From contig PLZG01000021.1 in assembly GCA_003152075.1 (NCBI GenBank), positions 1-40,572 on the forward strand: a DNA stretch of 40,572 bases, in the 5' to 3' direction. The translations under genes and the position numbers were made by a program. This DNA comes from a candidate division FCPU426 bacterium (lineage in GTDB: Bacteria; Oederibacteriota; Muellerivitia; Muellerivitales; Muellerivitaceae). Under the pieces are notes generated by a model. It was not told the DNA's origin, ran no database searches, and saw nothing but the letters and a program-made list of their open reading frames with translations. Below are positions 3,423-27,128 of this stretch, one piece after another (position 1 is the first letter of the stretch; every line of letters starts with the position of its first letter).

Positions 3423-5924
3423 ATGAAAGCCGTCATCATGGCCGGTGGGTTTGGAACCCGCATGCGCCCCCTCACCATTAACCTTCCCAAACCCATGATC
3501 CCCATGGTGAACCGGCCCATTATGGAAATCATCGTGGACCTCTTGAAAAAGCACAAACTTACCGACTTGATCAGCGTGGTTTTTTACCAACCCGAAGTCA
3601 TCACCGAGTATTTCCACGATGGCGCCAACCTGGGCATCCAAATGATGTACAAAGCCGCGGAGTCGGACCTGGGAACGGCCGGCTCGGTCAAGAATTGCCA
3701 GTCCCTTATCGGCAAAGAACGGTTTGTGGTTATCTCGGGCGACGTCCTGACCGATTTCGACCTGACGGCCGCCATCAAGTTCCACGAGCAAAACAAGGCC
3801 AAGGCCACCATGATCCTCACCCGTGTGGAAAACCCGCTGGCCTTCGGGGTAGTGATCACGGACAAGATTGGAAAAATCGAACGATTCCTGGAAAAACCAA
3901 CTTGGGGCGAGGTTTTCTCCGACACGGTGAATACGGGCATCTATATTTTAGAACCGGATGTGCTGGACCTTATCCCTGAAAGGTCCGAGTTTGATTTCTC
4001 GAAGGACCTTTTCCCTCTCATGCTCAAGGAAGGGATGCCCCTTTACGGCTATGTCGCGCAAGGCTATTGGGCGGACATCGGTAACTTGGATCAATACCGA
4101 CTTGCCCATCAGGATATTTTCGCGGGCAAGGTGGATGTCAATATTCCCGGCCAGCGCCAGAACAAGGTCGGTAAGGAAATTTGGGCCGGGGAAAAAACCC
4201 ATATTGACCCAAGCGCCCAACTTTTCGGAACAGTGGTCCTGGGAAACAACTGCAACGTGGGAAAAAACGCCAAGATCACCAACTCGGTTCTGGGCGACGG
4301 CTGCCAAGTGGAAGAAGGCGCGGTCTTGACCAACGCCATCCTCTGGCGCAATGTTTCCATCGGCGCCGAGGCCCAAGTTAGGGAATGCGTTATTTCCTCT
4401 GGTACGGACGTGCATGAAAAGGCTGAGATATTTGAAGGAGCCATCATCTCGGAGAACTGTACCATCGGTAAGGAATCCATTATCAAGGCGGGCGTTAAGG
4501 TTTGGCCCAACAAGGTTGTGGAGGACGGGGCACAGCTTGCCACTTCCCTGATCTGGGGCGATAAGTGGGCCAGGTCCATCTTCGGACAGCACGGCGTTAC
4601 CGGCATGGCCGGCATCGACATCACCCCTGAATTCGCCGCCAAACTTGGAGCGGCCTATGGGGCATCCCTTCCCAAGGGCTCTACCATCGTGACGGCCCGC
4701 GATATCCACAAGACGAGCCGGATGATCAACCGCGCGCTCATTTCCGGCATTCTCTCCTCCGGTGTCAACGTTCATGACCTCCAAGAAATGCCCATCTCGG
4801 TGGCGCGTTATGCCGTGCCGAAGCTTTCCGACGCGGGCGGGCTTCACACCCGAAAAAGCCCTTTCGACAATCAATTCATCGACATTAAGTTTTTCGACGG
4901 CAGGGGAATGGCCCTGTCCTCCGGCAAGGAGAAAGGAATCGAGAACCTTTTTTACCGGGAGGACTTCCGCCGGGCCATGATGGAAGAAACGGGTGAACTT
5001 TCCTTCCCGCACCGGCTTTTGGAGTTTTATCACGAGGGATTCCTGGAATCCCTGAACGTGAAAAGTATCGTGGACTACAAACCCAAAGTGATTATCGATT
5101 ACGCCTTCTCGGCGGCGGCTCCCATTTTTCCCTGGCTCCTGGGCAAGTTGGGCTGTGAGGTGGTGGCCCTGAACGCCTATATGGATGAGACCAAACTCAC
5201 CAAAAGCCAGGAAGAATTCCAGGCTTCCTTGAAACAATTGTCCGATATCGTGCCGACATTACGGGCGAACTTCGGCGTGTTATTCGATTCGGGCGCGGAA
5301 AAGATTTTCGTGGTGGATGAAAAGGGGCACTTGTTGCACGGCACCGAACTCCTGGCGCTTTTCTCCCTTTATGCCTACCACAAACAAAAAGGCGCTAAGA
5401 CAGTGGTGCCGGTGAATGGTTCCCAGATTCTTGATGATTTGGCTAAGGCCAACAGCGGCAAAATTCAGCGCACCCGCATTAACTACTATTCATTAATGGA
5501 AGCCGCTACCCAGAAAGACGTGGCCTTTGTGGGCGAGTCTGACGGTGGGTTTATTTTCCCGTCCTTCGCGCCCTTTATGGACGCCATGATGTCCACCGCC
5601 AAGCTGATGGAATTCATCGCCCTGGAAGGAAAGCCTATTTCCTTTTACCTTGAACAGATATCCAAGAAGATCCAGGTTAGCCAGAAGGTGCCCTGCTCCT
5701 GGGAAATGAAGGGAACCATCATGCGCCATTTGATTGAGGATACGGCCAACGAGAAACGCGAGCTTATCGATGGGGTAAAGCTAGTCATGAATGGTTCAGC
5801 GGTCATGATTTTGCCCGACGCCGACATGGCTCTTTTCCATGTTACTGCCGAGGCTGAGAACGAGAAGAAGGCCCAGGATCTTGTTACCACTTACGTGGAC
5901 AAGATCAAGAAGTGGCAGGGATGA
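3423..5924 (+). CDS. Mannose-1-phosphate guanylyltransferase with left-handed beta-helix and degenerate phosphomannomutase domain
   Basis: 833 residues. 1-235: nucleotidyltransferase with MAGGFGTRMRPLT (6-18) and PKPMIPMVNRP, the activation loop that makes GDP- or NDP-sugars. About 255-370: hexapeptide repeats (left-handed helix). About 385-833: a domain with the alpha-D-phosphohexomutase fold. In the last part the catalytic-serine loop is GGLHTRKSP (472-480) instead of TASHNP, the metal loop is DSGAEK (622-627) instead of DGDADR, and the phosphate loop RxSGTEP is not recognisable; only GESDGG (704-709) resembles the sugar-binding loop. The first half should be active; the mutase half probably is not a normal mutase (inference). 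This fused layout is known in actinobacteria and cyanobacteria. It likely feeds GDP-mannose or a related sugar into surface polysaccharide. The stop overlaps the next gene by ATGA. Confidence 0.88.
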   Translation: MKAVIMAGGFGTRMRPLTINLPKPMIPMVNRPIMEIIVDLLKKHKLTDLISVVFYQPEVITEYFHDGANLGIQMMYKAAESDLGTAGSVKNCQSLIGKERFVVISGDVLTDFDLTAAIKFHEQNKAKATMILTRVENPLAFGVVITDKIGKIERFLEKPTWGEVFSDTVNTGIYILEPDVLDLIPERSEFDFSKDLFPLMLKEGMPLYGYVAQGYWADIGNLDQYRLAHQDIFAGKVDVNIPGQRQNKVGKEIWAGEKTHIDPSAQLFGTVVLGNNCNVGKNAKITNSVLGDGCQVEEGAVLTNAILWRNVSIGAEAQVRECVISSGTDVHEKAEIFEGAIISENCTIGKESIIKAGVKVWPNKVVEDGAQLATSLIWGDKWARSIFGQHGVTGMAGIDITPEFAAKLGAAYGASLPKGSTIVTARDIHKTSRMINRALISGILSSGVNVHDLQEMPISVARYAVPKLSDAGGLHTRKSPFDNQFIDIKFFDGRGMALSSGKEKGIENLFYREDFRRAMMEETGELSFPHRLLEFYHEGFLESLNVKSIVDYKPKVIIDYAFSAAAPIFPWLLGKLGCEVVALNAYMDETKLTKSQEEFQASLKQLSDIVPTLRANFGVLFDSGAEKIFVVDEKGHLLHGTELLALFSLYAYHKQKGAKTVVPVNGSQILDDLAKANSGKIQRTRINYYSLMEAATQKDVAFVGESDGGFIFPSFAPFMDAMMSTAKLMEFIALEGKPISFYLEQISKKIQVSQKVPCSWEMKGTIMRHLIEDTANEKRELIDGVKLVMNGSAVMILPDADMALFHVTAEAENEKKAQDLVTTYVDKIKKWQG

Positions 5925-21618: not shown

Positions 21619-22377
21619 ATGTTTTCTCGCTCGAAAAATGTTTTTTTCTACGCGGTCGCGGCCGCGCTTTTCTTCATGGCCGGCTGGGCTTGCGACAAGT
21701 TCGCCAATAAATCTGGAATCTCAAACAGCCAAGTCGTTGCCGTTGTGGGCGACCATAACATCACCTTCGGCGATTGGATGAAACAAATGGACCTGTTGAG
21801 GGTCTTTGCCTCCTCGATCGACCCCGACAATTCGGAACAGGTCAAGGCGGTCCTGGACAGCCTCATCGATCAGCAATTGGTCTTGGACGCGGCTCAAAAA
21901 GCCAAATTCTCCGACCCGGCGTTTGACGAGGCCTTGAAGAAAAAACTGTTGGAATCCGACCTAAAGGTCAAAGAAATCAAAGACAAGCTGGAAAAGGACA
22001 TTCAAACGGTCCAACGCATCCAGAATGGTTACCAGGAACCCTACAAAAAAATGCTCTTGGCGCGGGAGTTCGCCGCCAGCCAGGTGAACAATGTATTCGT
22101 CACGGAAAAAGAAAAAAGGGATTGGTACGAACAATACGCCGCCCAAGCCCAAAAAGCAGGTCAAAGAATGCTTCCCTATGAGAAGGTGAAAAAAGAAGTT
22201 GAACCCAGCGTCAAGGCGGAAAAATTCCTGAAAGACCTTCAAGCACAAGCCAAGATCGACCGCAAACAGGATGTCATCGAAAAGTACTTGAACAGCCTCT
22301 CCATTAGCTCACAAATGCTGGATTCCAAGAACAACCTTCCCTCCGCCATTGACAGCAAGGTTGACGGAAAGAAATAA
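21619..22377 (+). CDS. SurA N-terminal-domain chaperone-like protein, probable lipoprotein
   Basis: 252 residues. Charged start (FSRSK), hydrophobic core to residue 24 and GWAC with Cys25, so lipid modification is likely though the -3 position is not the usual Leu. Asp26 follows the Cys; in E. coli that would keep it in the inner membrane. VVAVVGDHNITFGDWMKQM and the helices QVKAVLDSLIDQQLVLDAA are typical SurA_N features, and the C-terminal helices (VTEKEKRDWYEQYA, FLKDLQAQAKI) also match. There is no parvulin domain, so it would be a pure chaperone. AAAGGAG stands five bases before the ATG. It leads a run of three related genes. Confidence 0.75.
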   Translation: MFSRSKNVFFYAVAAALFFMAGWACDKFANKSGISNSQVVAVVGDHNITFGDWMKQMDLLRVFASSIDPDNSEQVKAVLDSLIDQQLVLDAAQKAKFSDPAFDEALKKKLLESDLKVKEIKDKLEKDIQTVQRIQNGYQEPYKKMLLAREFAASQVNNVFVTEKEKRDWYEQYAAQAQKAGQRMLPYEKVKKEVEPSVKAEKFLKDLQAQAKIDRKQDVIEKYLNSLSISSQMLDSKNNLPSAIDSKVDGKK

Positions 22378-22403: not shown

Positions 22404-23411
22404 TTGGTTCATTCCTCTAAAAATACTTGGGTTTGGACGGCCGGATTCCTTCTCTTAGGGAGTCTAAACCTTATCCTGGCTGGCTGTCATTCCCAACCAC
22501 TAGTTGACCTGGTTCCCCTCCCGGTTTTGCCGGATAAAACGGTGGTAACGGTTAATGGCGAGCCTCTCTCACTGGAAGAATTCGACAACGAATTCCGGCT
22601 TATGTCGATCCATTACAGCGCCGTCACCGAAGGCGATATGAGGGCCATTAAAAGGAGGCTTTTCGAGCAAGTCATCAATCGAAGGCTTTTGGTTCAGGAA
22701 GCCCGGAAAATCGGTTTGAAATTGACCCAGGTGGAAGTGGAGGAGACTTTTCACGAAGCCCTTAAGGACTCCCCGGATGATTTTTTATCCATTTTAAAAG
22801 TTCAAGGCGTGGGGGAACAGTCCTGGAAAAGGAAACTTCTTCAAGAAAGGCTCGCTCGTAAGCTGGTGGACCAGGAAGTTAACGCGAAAGTCGAAATCAA
22901 GCCCGAGGAACTGGAAGATTATTACTGGTCCAATCTGTCGGGTTATTGGAAATCCGAGGCGGTTCGGGCGAGGCATTTGGTCGTAAAGAAATCGACGGAT
23001 TTGCAGAAGGTCCTGTCAGGCTTGAAAAAAGGGGAGGATTTCCAAAGGTTAGTCTCCACTTTTTCAGCTGGTCCGGAAAAGGCCGAGGGGGGAGATTGGG
23101 GATTCATGGCCCTGGACCGCATTTCGGAGGCCTATCTCAAGGCTCTTTCAGCATTGAAGCCTGGGGAGATTTCGAAACCCCTGAAGGATGATTTTGGGTA
23201 TCATTTGTTCCAGTTGTTGGAGTGGCGGCCGCGAAGAATGCAGCCCTTCACCGAAGTGAAAAACCAGATCAACGAAAGTTTATTGAAGGAAGAGCAGGAT
23301 CAACGTTTCGACCAGTGGATGGCCGGCTTAAAAAAGAAGGCTACCATCCGAGTGAATCAAGAAATGGCCCCGGTGGTTGGGGTAACCCTGGAGGGTTTAC
23401 GTGAGGAATAA
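22404..23411 (+). CDS. Parvulin-type (PpiC) peptidyl-prolyl isomerase lipoprotein
   Basis: 335 residues from TTG 22404, the only start giving the signal peptide; GGTGG lies six bases upstream. Lipobox LAGC with Cys28 is textbook, and His29 follows, so outer-membrane sorting would be expected by the E. coli rule. A SurA_N part (VVTVNGEPLSLEEFDNEF, INRRLLVQEARKIGL) precedes a parvulin domain at about 185-275 (VRARHLVV, GEDFQRLVSTFS, GGDWGFM, LKPGEISKP, GYHLFQLLE). C-terminal helices then complete the SurA-like chaperone. It would fold or escort outer-membrane or secreted proteins in the periplasm. Its end overlaps the next gene by 11 bases. Confidence 0.9.
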   Translation: MVHSSKNTWVWTAGFLLLGSLNLILAGCHSQPLVDLVPLPVLPDKTVVTVNGEPLSLEEFDNEFRLMSIHYSAVTEGDMRAIKRRLFEQVINRRLLVQEARKIGLKLTQVEVEETFHEALKDSPDDFLSILKVQGVGEQSWKRKLLQERLARKLVDQEVNAKVEIKPEELEDYYWSNLSGYWKSEAVRARHLVVKKSTDLQKVLSGLKKGEDFQRLVSTFSAGPEKAEGGDWGFMALDRISEAYLKALSALKPGEISKPLKDDFGYHLFQLLEWRPRRMQPFTEVKNQINESLLKEEQDQRFDQWMAGLKKKATIRVNQEMAPVVGVTLEGLREE

Positions 23412-25167
23412 TCGCCTATTGGCTTATGTGTCACTTTTTATTTTAGGAATGGCCGGGTTTTTCCTGACCCGCCTCTCTTACGCCAAAACCGTGGATGAGG
23501 TCGCCGTGGTAGTGGACCACGATTCCATGACCCGGGGTGAGTTAGAGGAAGCCATCCAAGCCTATTTTTTCAGCCAGTTTGGCCCAAAATTCAAACTTCC
23601 TGCCCCCCAAACTCCCGAATTTCAAGCCGCGAAAAAGGACGTGGTAGAGGCTTTCATTCGTGAGGTTTTATTGTCGGAGGAGGCGGACCGGTTAAAAATC
23701 GAGGTGTCCGACGGGGAAGTTGACCATGAGGTCAATAACGAAATTGAGAACATGAAAAAGGGTTACAGCGACCAGGATTTCAACGAGGAGTTGAAAAAAG
23801 AGGGCATCACGGTAGACGACTTGAAGCAAGACACCCACGACAAGCTTTTGCGTCGCATCAAGGCCAACCGGGCGCTACGGATGAAGCAACAGGATTTACC
23901 CAGCTCGGCGGTGGTCAGCGACGAGGATATCCGCCAATATTTTAACGCGCATCCCCAGGATTACGAGCAGGTCAAATTCGACATTATTTTATTTCGGATA
24001 GGTCCCAAAACCAAACCCGAGGTAGTCAAGGAACTGGAAACCCAGTCCCGACAGGTTTTAAAGGAGCTTAAGGGCGGGGCTGACTTTGCCGCGTACGCCA
24101 AAAAATATTCCGAGGATCAGGGATCTGCCGACAAGGGCGGCGCCGTGGGCACGGTTTTTCGGTCCGAATTGGAACCTAAATTAGCCAAGGGCGTTTTTTC
24201 CATCCCCGAAAAAGGCTTAGGATTGGTGAGGGCGGACGAAGGTTTTTATATCGTGAAGGTTGATTTTAAGGGCAGTGCGGATTACGTCTCGGTGGCCCCG
24301 GACATCAAAGAACATTTGCGCAAGGAAAAACAGGACTCGGGTTTAAAGGACTGGTTCATCAGTTTGAAGAAGAAGGCTTACATCGTCGTGGATGGAAAGG
24401 TCGTAATCATCACTGGGGACGAAAGTCCCGACGAATCCGCCAAGATGAGGAATGCCACCCCCGGCGCTGAAGCTGACGAATCATCGAAGACTCCCGGCGA
24501 AGAGGCTAAAACCAACAAGCCAACCCCCGCCGAACCATCGGAAGAAGCAAAAGAGTCATCGAAAGAAGGGGTATATCCCAGTCTTCCGCCTGGCGACAGC
24601 TTCACGCTATATTTTGGGGGAGAAGGCTTTTTTTATGGAACCCAAGATTTGGCCAGTTACTATCCCTCGGGAACCAATGTCACCCAATCCTTCCCCTTTG
24701 GTTATGGGCTGAACGCTGGGCTGGATTGGTCGCTGGATCCCACATTTCAAGTGGGATTGATGGGGGAACTACTGAGGAAGTGGGTGGAAACCGCCAATAC
24801 TTCCGACCAATGGACCGAATTAGCCGGCGGACCCGCACTTACGTTGAAACTCCTCATTCCCTTGGATGAAAGCACCAACTTTACTATTTGCGGGGCGGGA
24901 GGCTATTACTTTTTATTCGGATCCACTTTGTTCACCTCGGGCCAATTCACGAACCTAAACGGTTCGAATTGGGGCGCGCGGGCGGGCGGTACGCTTGATT
25001 TTTTATTGGATGAACAAAAGAACACGGCTCTTGAGATGGGCGGCGGTTATCGTTACCTCAAATTCAACCCCACTTCCGTCCTGAACTCCGATGGCACCCA
25101 GGCGGCTTTGGATTTTTCCGGCCCTTATGTTGAGGCAGGGCTAAAGTTTTTCCTCGGAAAAGATTAA
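23401..25167 (+). CDS. SurA/PpiC chaperone-isomerase fused to a predicted outer-membrane beta-barrel
   Basis: 588 residues from GTG 23401. 1-29: signal peptide ending in LSYAK, with no lipobox. 30-165: SurA_N region (DEVAVVVDHDSMTRGELEE, FIREVLLSEEADRL). About 190-290: parvulin domain (VKFDIILFRIG, GADFAAYAKKYSED, KGGAVGTVF, GFYIVKV). 300-340: closing helices. 341-397: Glu/Pro/Ser/Lys-rich linker. 398-588: alternating amphipathic strands with Gly and aromatic residues; I count eight (near 400-411, 432-445, 448-460, 470-486, 493-507, 523-536, 541-556, 574-585), like an OmpA/OmpW-size barrel, ending in VEAGLKFFLGKD. Known SurA proteins have no such domain. No internal stop or shift separates the two parts. 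It would tether an isomerase beneath the outer membrane. Confidence 0.85.
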   Translation: MRNNRLLAYVSLFILGMAGFFLTRLSYAKTVDEVAVVVDHDSMTRGELEEAIQAYFFSQFGPKFKLPAPQTPEFQAAKKDVVEAFIREVLLSEEADRLKIEVSDGEVDHEVNNEIENMKKGYSDQDFNEELKKEGITVDDLKQDTHDKLLRRIKANRALRMKQQDLPSSAVVSDEDIRQYFNAHPQDYEQVKFDIILFRIGPKTKPEVVKELETQSRQVLKELKGGADFAAYAKKYSEDQGSADKGGAVGTVFRSELEPKLAKGVFSIPEKGLGLVRADEGFYIVKVDFKGSADYVSVAPDIKEHLRKEKQDSGLKDWFISLKKKAYIVVDGKVVIITGDESPDESAKMRNATPGAEADESSKTPGEEAKTNKPTPAEPSEEAKESSKEGVYPSLPPGDSFTLYFGGEGFFYGTQDLASYYPSGTNVTQSFPFGYGLNAGLDWSLDPTFQVGLMGELLRKWVETANTSDQWTELAGGPALTLKLLIPLDESTNFTICGAGGYYFLFGSTLFTSGQFTNLNGSNWGARAGGTLDFLLDEQKNTALEMGGGYRYLKFNPTSVLNSDGTQAALDFSGPYVEAGLKFFLGKD

Positions 25168-25610: not shown

Positions 25611-27128
25611 ATGAATCCAACCCGGGCCAAAGCCCAACAACGAATTCCCTTTTTAATATTTTTGTCCCTTTACCTTCTTTTCTCCCTTTTGACCTACCGG
25701 GATTATGGGGCGACTTGGGATGAGCAGGAGGCTTACCAGGGGGGCACGGCCCTTTACAACTACGTCGTCCACGGGGTTAAGCCGGCTTATTTTGATCCGG
25801 AGCACAGTTACCCCTATACCTTTCTCCTGAATTTCATTACCTCGAAAATGGATTTTGAGTTTCTCCATCTTCTAAACCTTTTGTTCGCCGTTTTTTTGTT
25901 TTGGGCTATTTTTGAAACACTTTTGGCCCAGTATGGAAAACAATGGTGGGCCTTGGCTGGCCCGGTATTCTTATTCTTTAACCTCCCCTTTTTGGGAAGT
26001 ATCCCCGCGAACCCCAAAGATATCCCGTTCGCGATTTTTTATTTTTTGAGCCTTGCCGCGATTTATCTTTTTGAAGAAAAGTTTCCACGATTTAAGGTCC
26101 GTTGGGCCATCCTGGGAGGTCTTTTCGGTTTCACGATTACGTCCCGAGTAGTGGGGTTTACCCTGTTCCCCGTTTTGATTTTTTTCGACGCCTATGTTTT
26201 TTGGATAGAGAAGAAAAAAAGAGGATCGAAAGAATTTAAGGAATGGTTTAAGCGAAAGGCGATTGACTGGTTGGGAGTCTTGGTTATTTCCCAGATTTTT
26301 TGCGCGCTTTTGTGGCCTTACCTGGGGCAAAATTATTTATCAAACCTCGCAAATGTTTTTTGGTTAAGCGCCCACTTCCCCCCGAAATTTGGAATTTTAT
26401 TTATGGGTGGGATGACGGATTCGTTGAATTATCCTTGGTATTACCTGCCTCTTTGGATTGTCATCACCACGCCCTTATTTATTCTGGGTTTTTTCGCTTT
26501 TTCATTGATAAGGTTTAAAGTTTCCAAAACAAACAAACTTTATGTTTTGTTGGGAGGAACGTTTTTCCTCAATATGGGTTTGTACTTATTTCTGCATCCC
26601 GCCATCTATGATGGTTTGCGTCATTTTTTATTTCTACTTCCCATTCTTTCCACTTTGGCGGCCCTCGCTTTTATTGAATACTTTGGAAAAAAGACTTTTT
26701 CGTTTCTTCGTAAGGCGATTGGGTTTCTTACTCTGTTAAGCCTCGGGGTAACGGGGTCGCACTTGGTCCGACTCCATCCTTACGAGTATGTGTATTTCAA
26801 TGAGTTGGTGGGTGGGTTCAAAGGCGCTTACGGAAAATACGAGACGGATTATTGGGTAACCAGCATGAAGGAGGCGGTGGAATGGTTAAAGTCTAAGGAA
26901 CTCAAGGATCCCAACCGGACTTATAAAATTTTTGTCCTTGGACACCCGCCCCAATACCAGATTTATTTCAGCCCCCAAATGCAGTATGTCCCTATGGTGG
27001 AAGGGGCGGATTACTCCATTGTGATGACGCGCGCCGGCCTTAAGCCCGAACCAAAGGATGAAGCCAAGGTCATCCACCGTGTGGAAAGGGAAGGGGCACC
27101 GCTAAGTTTTATCTTGAAATTGCGTTAA
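25611..27128 (+). CDS. GT-C fold membrane glycosyltransferase (ArnT/PMT, GT39-like)
   Basis: 505 residues with about ten hydrophobic segments. After the first helix the first extracytoplasmic loop carries YGATWDEQEAY, the acidic D-E motif of GT-C enzymes, and a further IPANPKDIPFA motif follows, as in PMT_2-family transferases. It lacks cysteine or soluble donor-binding domains, so it should use a polyprenyl-phosphate sugar on the outer face of the inner membrane. The C-terminal segment (SMKEAVEWLKSK, PPQYQIYFSPQMQYVPM) is soluble. It ends one base before the oppositely directed gph stop. The acceptor is unknown. Confidence 0.75.
   Translation: MNPTRAKAQQRIPFLIFLSLYLLFSLLTYRDYGATWDEQEAYQGGTALYNYVVHGVKPAYFDPEHSYPYTFLLNFITSKMDFEFLHLLNLLFAVFLFWAIFETLLAQYGKQWWALAGPVFLFFNLPFLGSIPANPKDIPFAIFYFLSLAAIYLFEEKFPRFKVRWAILGGLFGFTITSRVVGFTLFPVLIFFDAYVFWIEKKKRGSKEFKEWFKRKAIDWLGVLVISQIFCALLWPYLGQNYLSNLANVFWLSAHFPPKFGILFMGGMTDSLNYPWYYLPLWIVITTPLFILGFFAFSLIRFKVSKTNKLYVLLGGTFFLNMGLYLFLHPAIYDGLRHFLFLLPILSTLAALAFIEYFGKKTFSFLRKAIGFLTLLSLGVTGSHLVRLHPYEYVYFNELVGGFKGAYGKYETDYWVTSMKEAVEWLKSKELKDPNRTYKIFVLGHPPQYQIYFSPQMQYVPMVEGADYSIVMTRAGLKPEPKDEAKVIHRVEREGAPLSFILKLR

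Follow-up and report, generated by a model that had tools for sequence, protein, structure and literature searches.

Can a periplasmic chaperone of the SurA type carry its own outer-membrane barrel? The question arises from a gene in a 40,572-nucleotide stretch of DNA of a candidate division FCPU426 bacterium (contig PLZG01000021.1 of assembly GCA_003152075.1, hereafter the window), in which SurA-like and barrel-like parts appear to share one frame.

An uninterrupted frame with a SurA-like core

The gene, which lies with all its parts on the forward strand, runs without interruption from a GTG start at 23401 to the stop at 25167. The 588 encoded aa comprise, in this order, a probable signal peptide, a SurA-like core that contains a single parvulin domain, a linker of 54 residues and a C-terminal domain of 197 residues. 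An earlier reading made from the sequence alone (the sequence-only reading) had claimed one uninterrupted frame and the order SurA_N, parvulin, linker and barrel-like part. Both claims hold, as full-length relatives are present in six other genomes of the same family, the order is conserved in all seven species genomes, and no full-length copy contains an internal stop, ruling out a frameshift or read-through. The same reading had raised the worry of an assembly join at 24400–24620. Given that the identical fusion occurs in seven independent species genomes at 43–56% identity, such a join or chimera is excluded without read mapping.

The first 28 residues (23401–23484) were read by eye as a signal peptide, which signal peptidase I could plausibly cleave after residue 28 (..LSYA/KTV) and which has no lipobox; AlphaFold2 places a helix at residues 3–26. 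The SurA-like N-terminal domain follows (residues 29–186; 23485–23958), with matches to Pfam SurA_N_3 (residues 6–151, 51.2 bits against a cut-off of 27.2) and SurA_N (residues 31–149, 31.1 bits against 30.8) and a model pLDDT mostly of 80–93. The single parvulin domain (residues 189–289; 23965–24267) matches Rotamase_3 over residues 186–288 (58.6 bits against 22.5), so that at least one parvulin domain, as expected of a SurA-like chaperone, is present. Behind it, a helix (residues 295–325 of the model) and a strand (328–330), also supported by alignment, complete the N-terminal domain as in a SurA core (residues 290–337; 24268–24411). In the full-length AlphaFold2 run (30 alignment rows, two of them spanning the C-terminal domain), residues ~31–340 were confidently predicted, most blocks having a pLDDT of 80–94, and the closest PDB match of this modelled core was E. 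coli SurA minus its second parvulin domain (2pv3, E 1.2e-14). The model thus shows a SurA fold for residues ~31–340. The fusion scored 64.7 bits with the NCBIfam SurA equivalog PRK10770, far under the cut-off of 394, and we therefore call the protein SurA-like and not SurA proper.

The fusion shares with E. coli SurA the core fold, a plausible signal of the signal peptidase I type and an N-terminal strand resembling the POTRA-1-binding segment. In our own sequence comparison, the strand KTVDEVAVVV at the start of the N-terminal domain is positioned like this segment (PQVVDKVAAVV), the first residues of E. coli SurA being known to bind BamA POTRA-1 via beta-augmentation (PMC11366764). The strand is thus compatible with a contact to BamA. 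E. coli SurA differs in having two parvulin domains, whereas the fusion has one, has lost its histidines and has gained a linker and a barrel at the C-terminus. One parvulin domain in a SurA/PrsA-type core is also found in H. pylori HP0175, C. jejuni PEB4 and PrsA, which, however, have no barrel; PrsA is lipid-anchored on the cytoplasmic membrane, so lipid anchoring of such foldases is already known.

The sequence-only reading had spoken of a chaperone-isomerase. The chaperone part of that name is supported by Pfam and the model, which agree on a core of the SurA/PpiC type, while the isomerase part is doubtful. In the alignment, both canonical active-site histidines are replaced, by Ile/Leu and by Tyr, in all eight family copies (FDIILF and GFYIVK in the window), and none of these copies has the two conserved histidines of a catalytic parvulin; in the window copy the Asp of YSED is retained. 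The histidines are likewise replaced in most homologues outside the family. Their absence does not suffice to call the domain dead: E. faecium PpiC carries the same two replacements and is described with isomerase activity (PMC12524980), so that the fusion may yet be active.

The core is followed by an unstructured linker (residues 338–391; 24412–24573), recognised by its composition (11 E, 7 S, 7 A, 6 P and 6 K in 54 residues) and a pLDDT of about 25–30. The linker had thus been rightly recognised earlier, although its length had been put at 57 residues. Across the fused relatives it measures 44–72 aa, and no conserved motif was found in the linkers of the fused copies.

The C-terminal domain as a probable outer-membrane barrel

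The remaining residues, 392–588 (24574–25164), very probably form an 8-stranded outer-membrane barrel, judging from the OMP_b-brl match of an orthologue, profile comparison and the pattern of alignment gaps. The region had earlier been described as about 190 residues with eight strands; it comprises 197, and eight alternating segments are readable in a 12-sequence alignment (proposed strands 399–412, 433–445, 448–462, 470–487, 491–507, 521–534, 541–556 and 571–584). Insertion in the outer membrane, also part of that description, would follow from family and topology. Alternation alone gave a modest signal in a shuffle test at a threshold that we picked ourselves (10 peaks against 5.6 ± 1.8, P about 0.016).

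Pfam OMP_b-brl (PF13505) recognised the orthologue in genome G024 with 35.7 bits against a cut-off of 28.7 and gave 17.2 bits for the G029 copy and no match for the window copy, which matched no barrel family at its cut-off. In hhalign, the family profile built from 12 sequences matched a set of 20 OMP_b-brl proteins from the same phylum with a probability of 95% (E 4.6e-8, for a single comparison); the fused copies alone gave 88% and reversed-profile controls 0.2–0.9%. Homology to OMP_b-brl is therefore found by a controlled profile comparison. Moreover, internal gaps in the alignment are confined to 424–431, 468, 514 and 559–566, which are the four expected outer loops; the short turns, three in number and located near 446, 489 and 537, are free of gaps. 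The loops also differ between species. OMP_b-brl barrels thus share with this domain both profile-profile homology and the loop/turn pattern of eight strands; they differ in normally standing alone, whereas here the barrel is a C-terminal anchor behind a chaperone.

The last strand has aromatic residues at or near its end, as in a beta-signal: the fused copies have GLKFF/RFY near the end, followed by a short tail. In the G024 orthologue (L047 1441–3288, reverse strand), a Gly/Ser-rich tail of ~20 residues extends beyond the last barrel strand.

Structure prediction of the C-terminal region, which the sequence-only reading had called for, was run and was uninformative either way (AlphaFold2 pLDDT 33). 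We attribute the low pLDDT to the shallow alignment, which had two rows in the barrel-alone run, and read it as no evidence against a barrel. Foldseek with this poor model returned noise only, and a search of PDB sequences with the barrel profile gave nothing useful.

Distribution, relatives and gene neighbourhood

We surveyed 45 species genomes of candidate phylum FCPU426, eight of them from the family of the window. The complete architecture is present in all seven family genomes in which it can be read (G000, G024, G025, G027, G028, G029 and G030, the last being L005, a public 'candidate division FCPU426' MAG), each time as a single frame that is open throughout (588 aa in the window, 611–631 aa in the others). 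In the eighth (G026), the SurA part runs off the contig end and the architecture is unreadable. The 17 homologues compared from other parts of the phylum have nothing beyond the SurA core, and no SurA-barrel fusion was found in the rest of the 45 genomes. Nor did the barrel profile (E 1e-6) find a fused barrel outside the family among 384 relatives; a scan of genome contigs, of limited sensitivity, yielded one fused copy, that of L005. In another family, the long frames of two SurA homologues (681 aa in G001, 456 aa in G002) proved to be upstream frame extensions without a C-terminal barrel. In G023, which belongs to the same order but another family (97% complete, 2.0 Mb), there is no SurA-parvulin match at E 0.001; this genome has two OMP_b-brl proteins.

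The alignment of homologues indicates that the phylum-wide SurA-like gene predates the addition of the barrel. In the tree, the fused barrels group together in a single clade (99/99, the bootstrap not being fully settled), separate from the TPR-type barrels, a pattern that fits a single origin. Since equally degenerate parvulins occur without a barrel outside the family, the degeneracy is not a consequence of the fusion.

The TPR-type barrels belong to paralogues in which TPR repeats are followed by a linker and then by the same barrel. They are patchily distributed, in 4 of the 8 family genomes (G000 C85; G024 C17, C24 and C26; G025 C2, twice; G029 C69), and are apparently confined to this bacterial family. 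One lies at L002 923–1984 on the reverse strand and others are in L094, L095, L096 and L101; all are relatives of the fusion's C-terminal domain. These proteins resemble the fusion in placing the same barrel subfamily behind an N-terminal periplasmic part and a linker; they differ in having TPR repeats where the fusion has SurA and in that the chain ends at the last barrel strand. The C-termini of five paralogues were read and are typical of outer-membrane proteins: RFF in three of them, RLY and RFVH in one each.

Within the locus, the fusion gene overlaps by 11 bases the gene of a PpiC-type lipoprotein (22404–23411, forward strand) identified by Pfam and alignment, with the lipobox LAGC and the parvulin histidines kept; in other family loci the two genes overlap or abut. 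The order mfd-like gene, SurA_N-only gene, PpiC lipoprotein and fusion is common to the window and L005, the mfd-like gene being one that we take to be such from its sequence. The SurA_N-only protein (21619–22377, forward strand, in the window; 4842–5678 in L005) scores above the cut-offs with SurA_N_2 (30.3 bits) and SurA_N_3 (29.1 bits) and has lost its parvulin domain; its gene lies between the mfd-like and the two parvulin genes, and it has a Cys after the hydrophobic stretch without a canonical lipobox. Downstream of the fusion, a conserved 505-aa protein (25611–27128 in the window, 9108–10631 in L005) appears by eye to be multi-spanning and has no Pfam match at 1e-5. Farther away, at 3423–5924, one protein combines NTP-transferase, hexapeptide and phosphomannomutase domains I–III.

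All eight family genomes encode a homologue of Skp (OmpH) and a protein resembling Omp85/BamA; in G000 the Omp85 match lies at C70:22741–23709. Parvulin proteins (PF00639) number three in each of seven genomes and two in G026 (65% complete). The three are a protein of ~500 aa, which has the best parvulin score and is PpiD-like by domain content and length, the upstream lipoprotein, and the fusion. As the other two are a PpiD-like protein and a lipoprotein, the fusion is the only parvulin protein in the family genomes that is built like classical SurA.

A tethered chaperone and its alternatives

N-terminal periplasmic modules ahead of a C-terminal barrel are generally known, as in BamA, PgaA and BcsC, and SurA-like proteins are known as well; it is their natural combination that appears to be new. 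In the literature searched, we found no natural SurA-barrel or PpiC-barrel fusion and no outer-membrane-tethered chaperone.

Given the evidence for the barrel, the SurA core, the conservation of the fusion in the family, the presence of Omp85 and Skp without another classical SurA, the POTRA-1-like strand and a natural linker at the same junction as in engineered proteins, we propose that the fusion is probably a periplasmic SurA-like chaperone whose own C-terminal 8-stranded barrel tethers it to the outer membrane. What speaks against this is the low-confidence model of the barrel, the lack of a barrel-family match for the window copy and the loss of both parvulin histidines. Export of the chain would go through Sec, and the Omp85/BAM machinery would fold the barrel into the outer membrane. 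Because the strand number is even, both barrel ends would be periplasmic, so that the SurA core would remain in the periplasm and hang below the outer membrane on a flexible tether of 44–72 residues, where it could capture unfolded outer-membrane proteins and present them to BamA. Membrane insertion, topology, client binding and contact with BamA are what we infer from these parts. A position at BAM, the site that the sequence-only reading had suggested, would be a further step, as the anchor places the fusion in the outer membrane and not necessarily at BAM.

The closest precedents are engineered SurA-OmpX and SurA-EspP chimeras (PMC11366764; PDB 8qpv, 8qp5), in which a barrel is likewise joined to the C-terminus of SurA and which reach BAM in E. 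coli. Their authors argued that the barrel must have a linker to complete folding, which OmpX without one could not do, and presumed that EspP gains the required length from its 76 extra residues; SurA-EspP has a long natural linker, and the fusion described here has a linker too. The chimeras differ in being made in the laboratory to trap a complex, whereas here a conserved fusion occurs in nature and seems to be the genome's sole classical SurA.

Other readings of the same parts were weighed. The barrel could be a general anchor, and the SurA-derived part could have turned from a chaperone of outer-membrane proteins into a module that binds or docks a different periplasmic partner, in line with the TPR repeats on the same barrel subfamily and with the loss of the parvulin histidines. 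We consider this unlikely, because the SurA core is complete, well conserved and still in a parvulin operon, the family genomes have no other classical SurA, and homologues with equally degenerate parvulins outside the family have no barrel. Somewhat less likely still is that the SurA part is retained at the N-terminus chiefly to help its own barrel fold, and that the barrel, as a surface protein, does the actual work. In the covalent SurA-OmpX chimera OmpX does stay bound in the SurA core (PMC11366764), and the loops vary between species; however, the TPR-type paralogues evidently manage without SurA, and other clients would be left without a classical SurA, although the phylum-wide gene predates the barrel.

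A beta-rich C-terminal domain that is soluble, or attached at the periphery, and forms no membrane barrel would agree with the unconfident two-row model and the sub-threshold scores of the window copy. We nevertheless regard it as very improbable, in view of OMP_b-brl homology by two routes, the loop/turn pattern and the aromatic C-terminal strands of the paralogues. Finally, a long, unstructured and sequence-variable linker might be cut after insertion, releasing soluble SurA as with the passengers of some autotransporters. To this we give hardly any credence, since the linker has no conserved motif and the unfused homologues demonstrate that a soluble protein can be exported without any barrel.

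The chances seem even that the family has replaced diffusible SurA with a version built covalently into the outer membrane, and runs the chaperone step of outer-membrane biogenesis from a membrane-tethered station. In that case the very machine that the chaperone supplies would have the chaperone itself among its clients. Artificial SurA-barrel fusions, which trap the complex, have served to study how SurA finds BAM and releases its clients. From a fusion that is natural, conserved and equipped with a long linker, one would learn that a cell can live with permanently tethered SurA; it would make the need for chaperone diffusion testable and would offer a ready construct for structural work on BAM and SurA. 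In this lineage, moreover, a small barrel seems to have been put to repeated use, anchoring different periplasmic modules (SurA and TPR) in the outer membrane.
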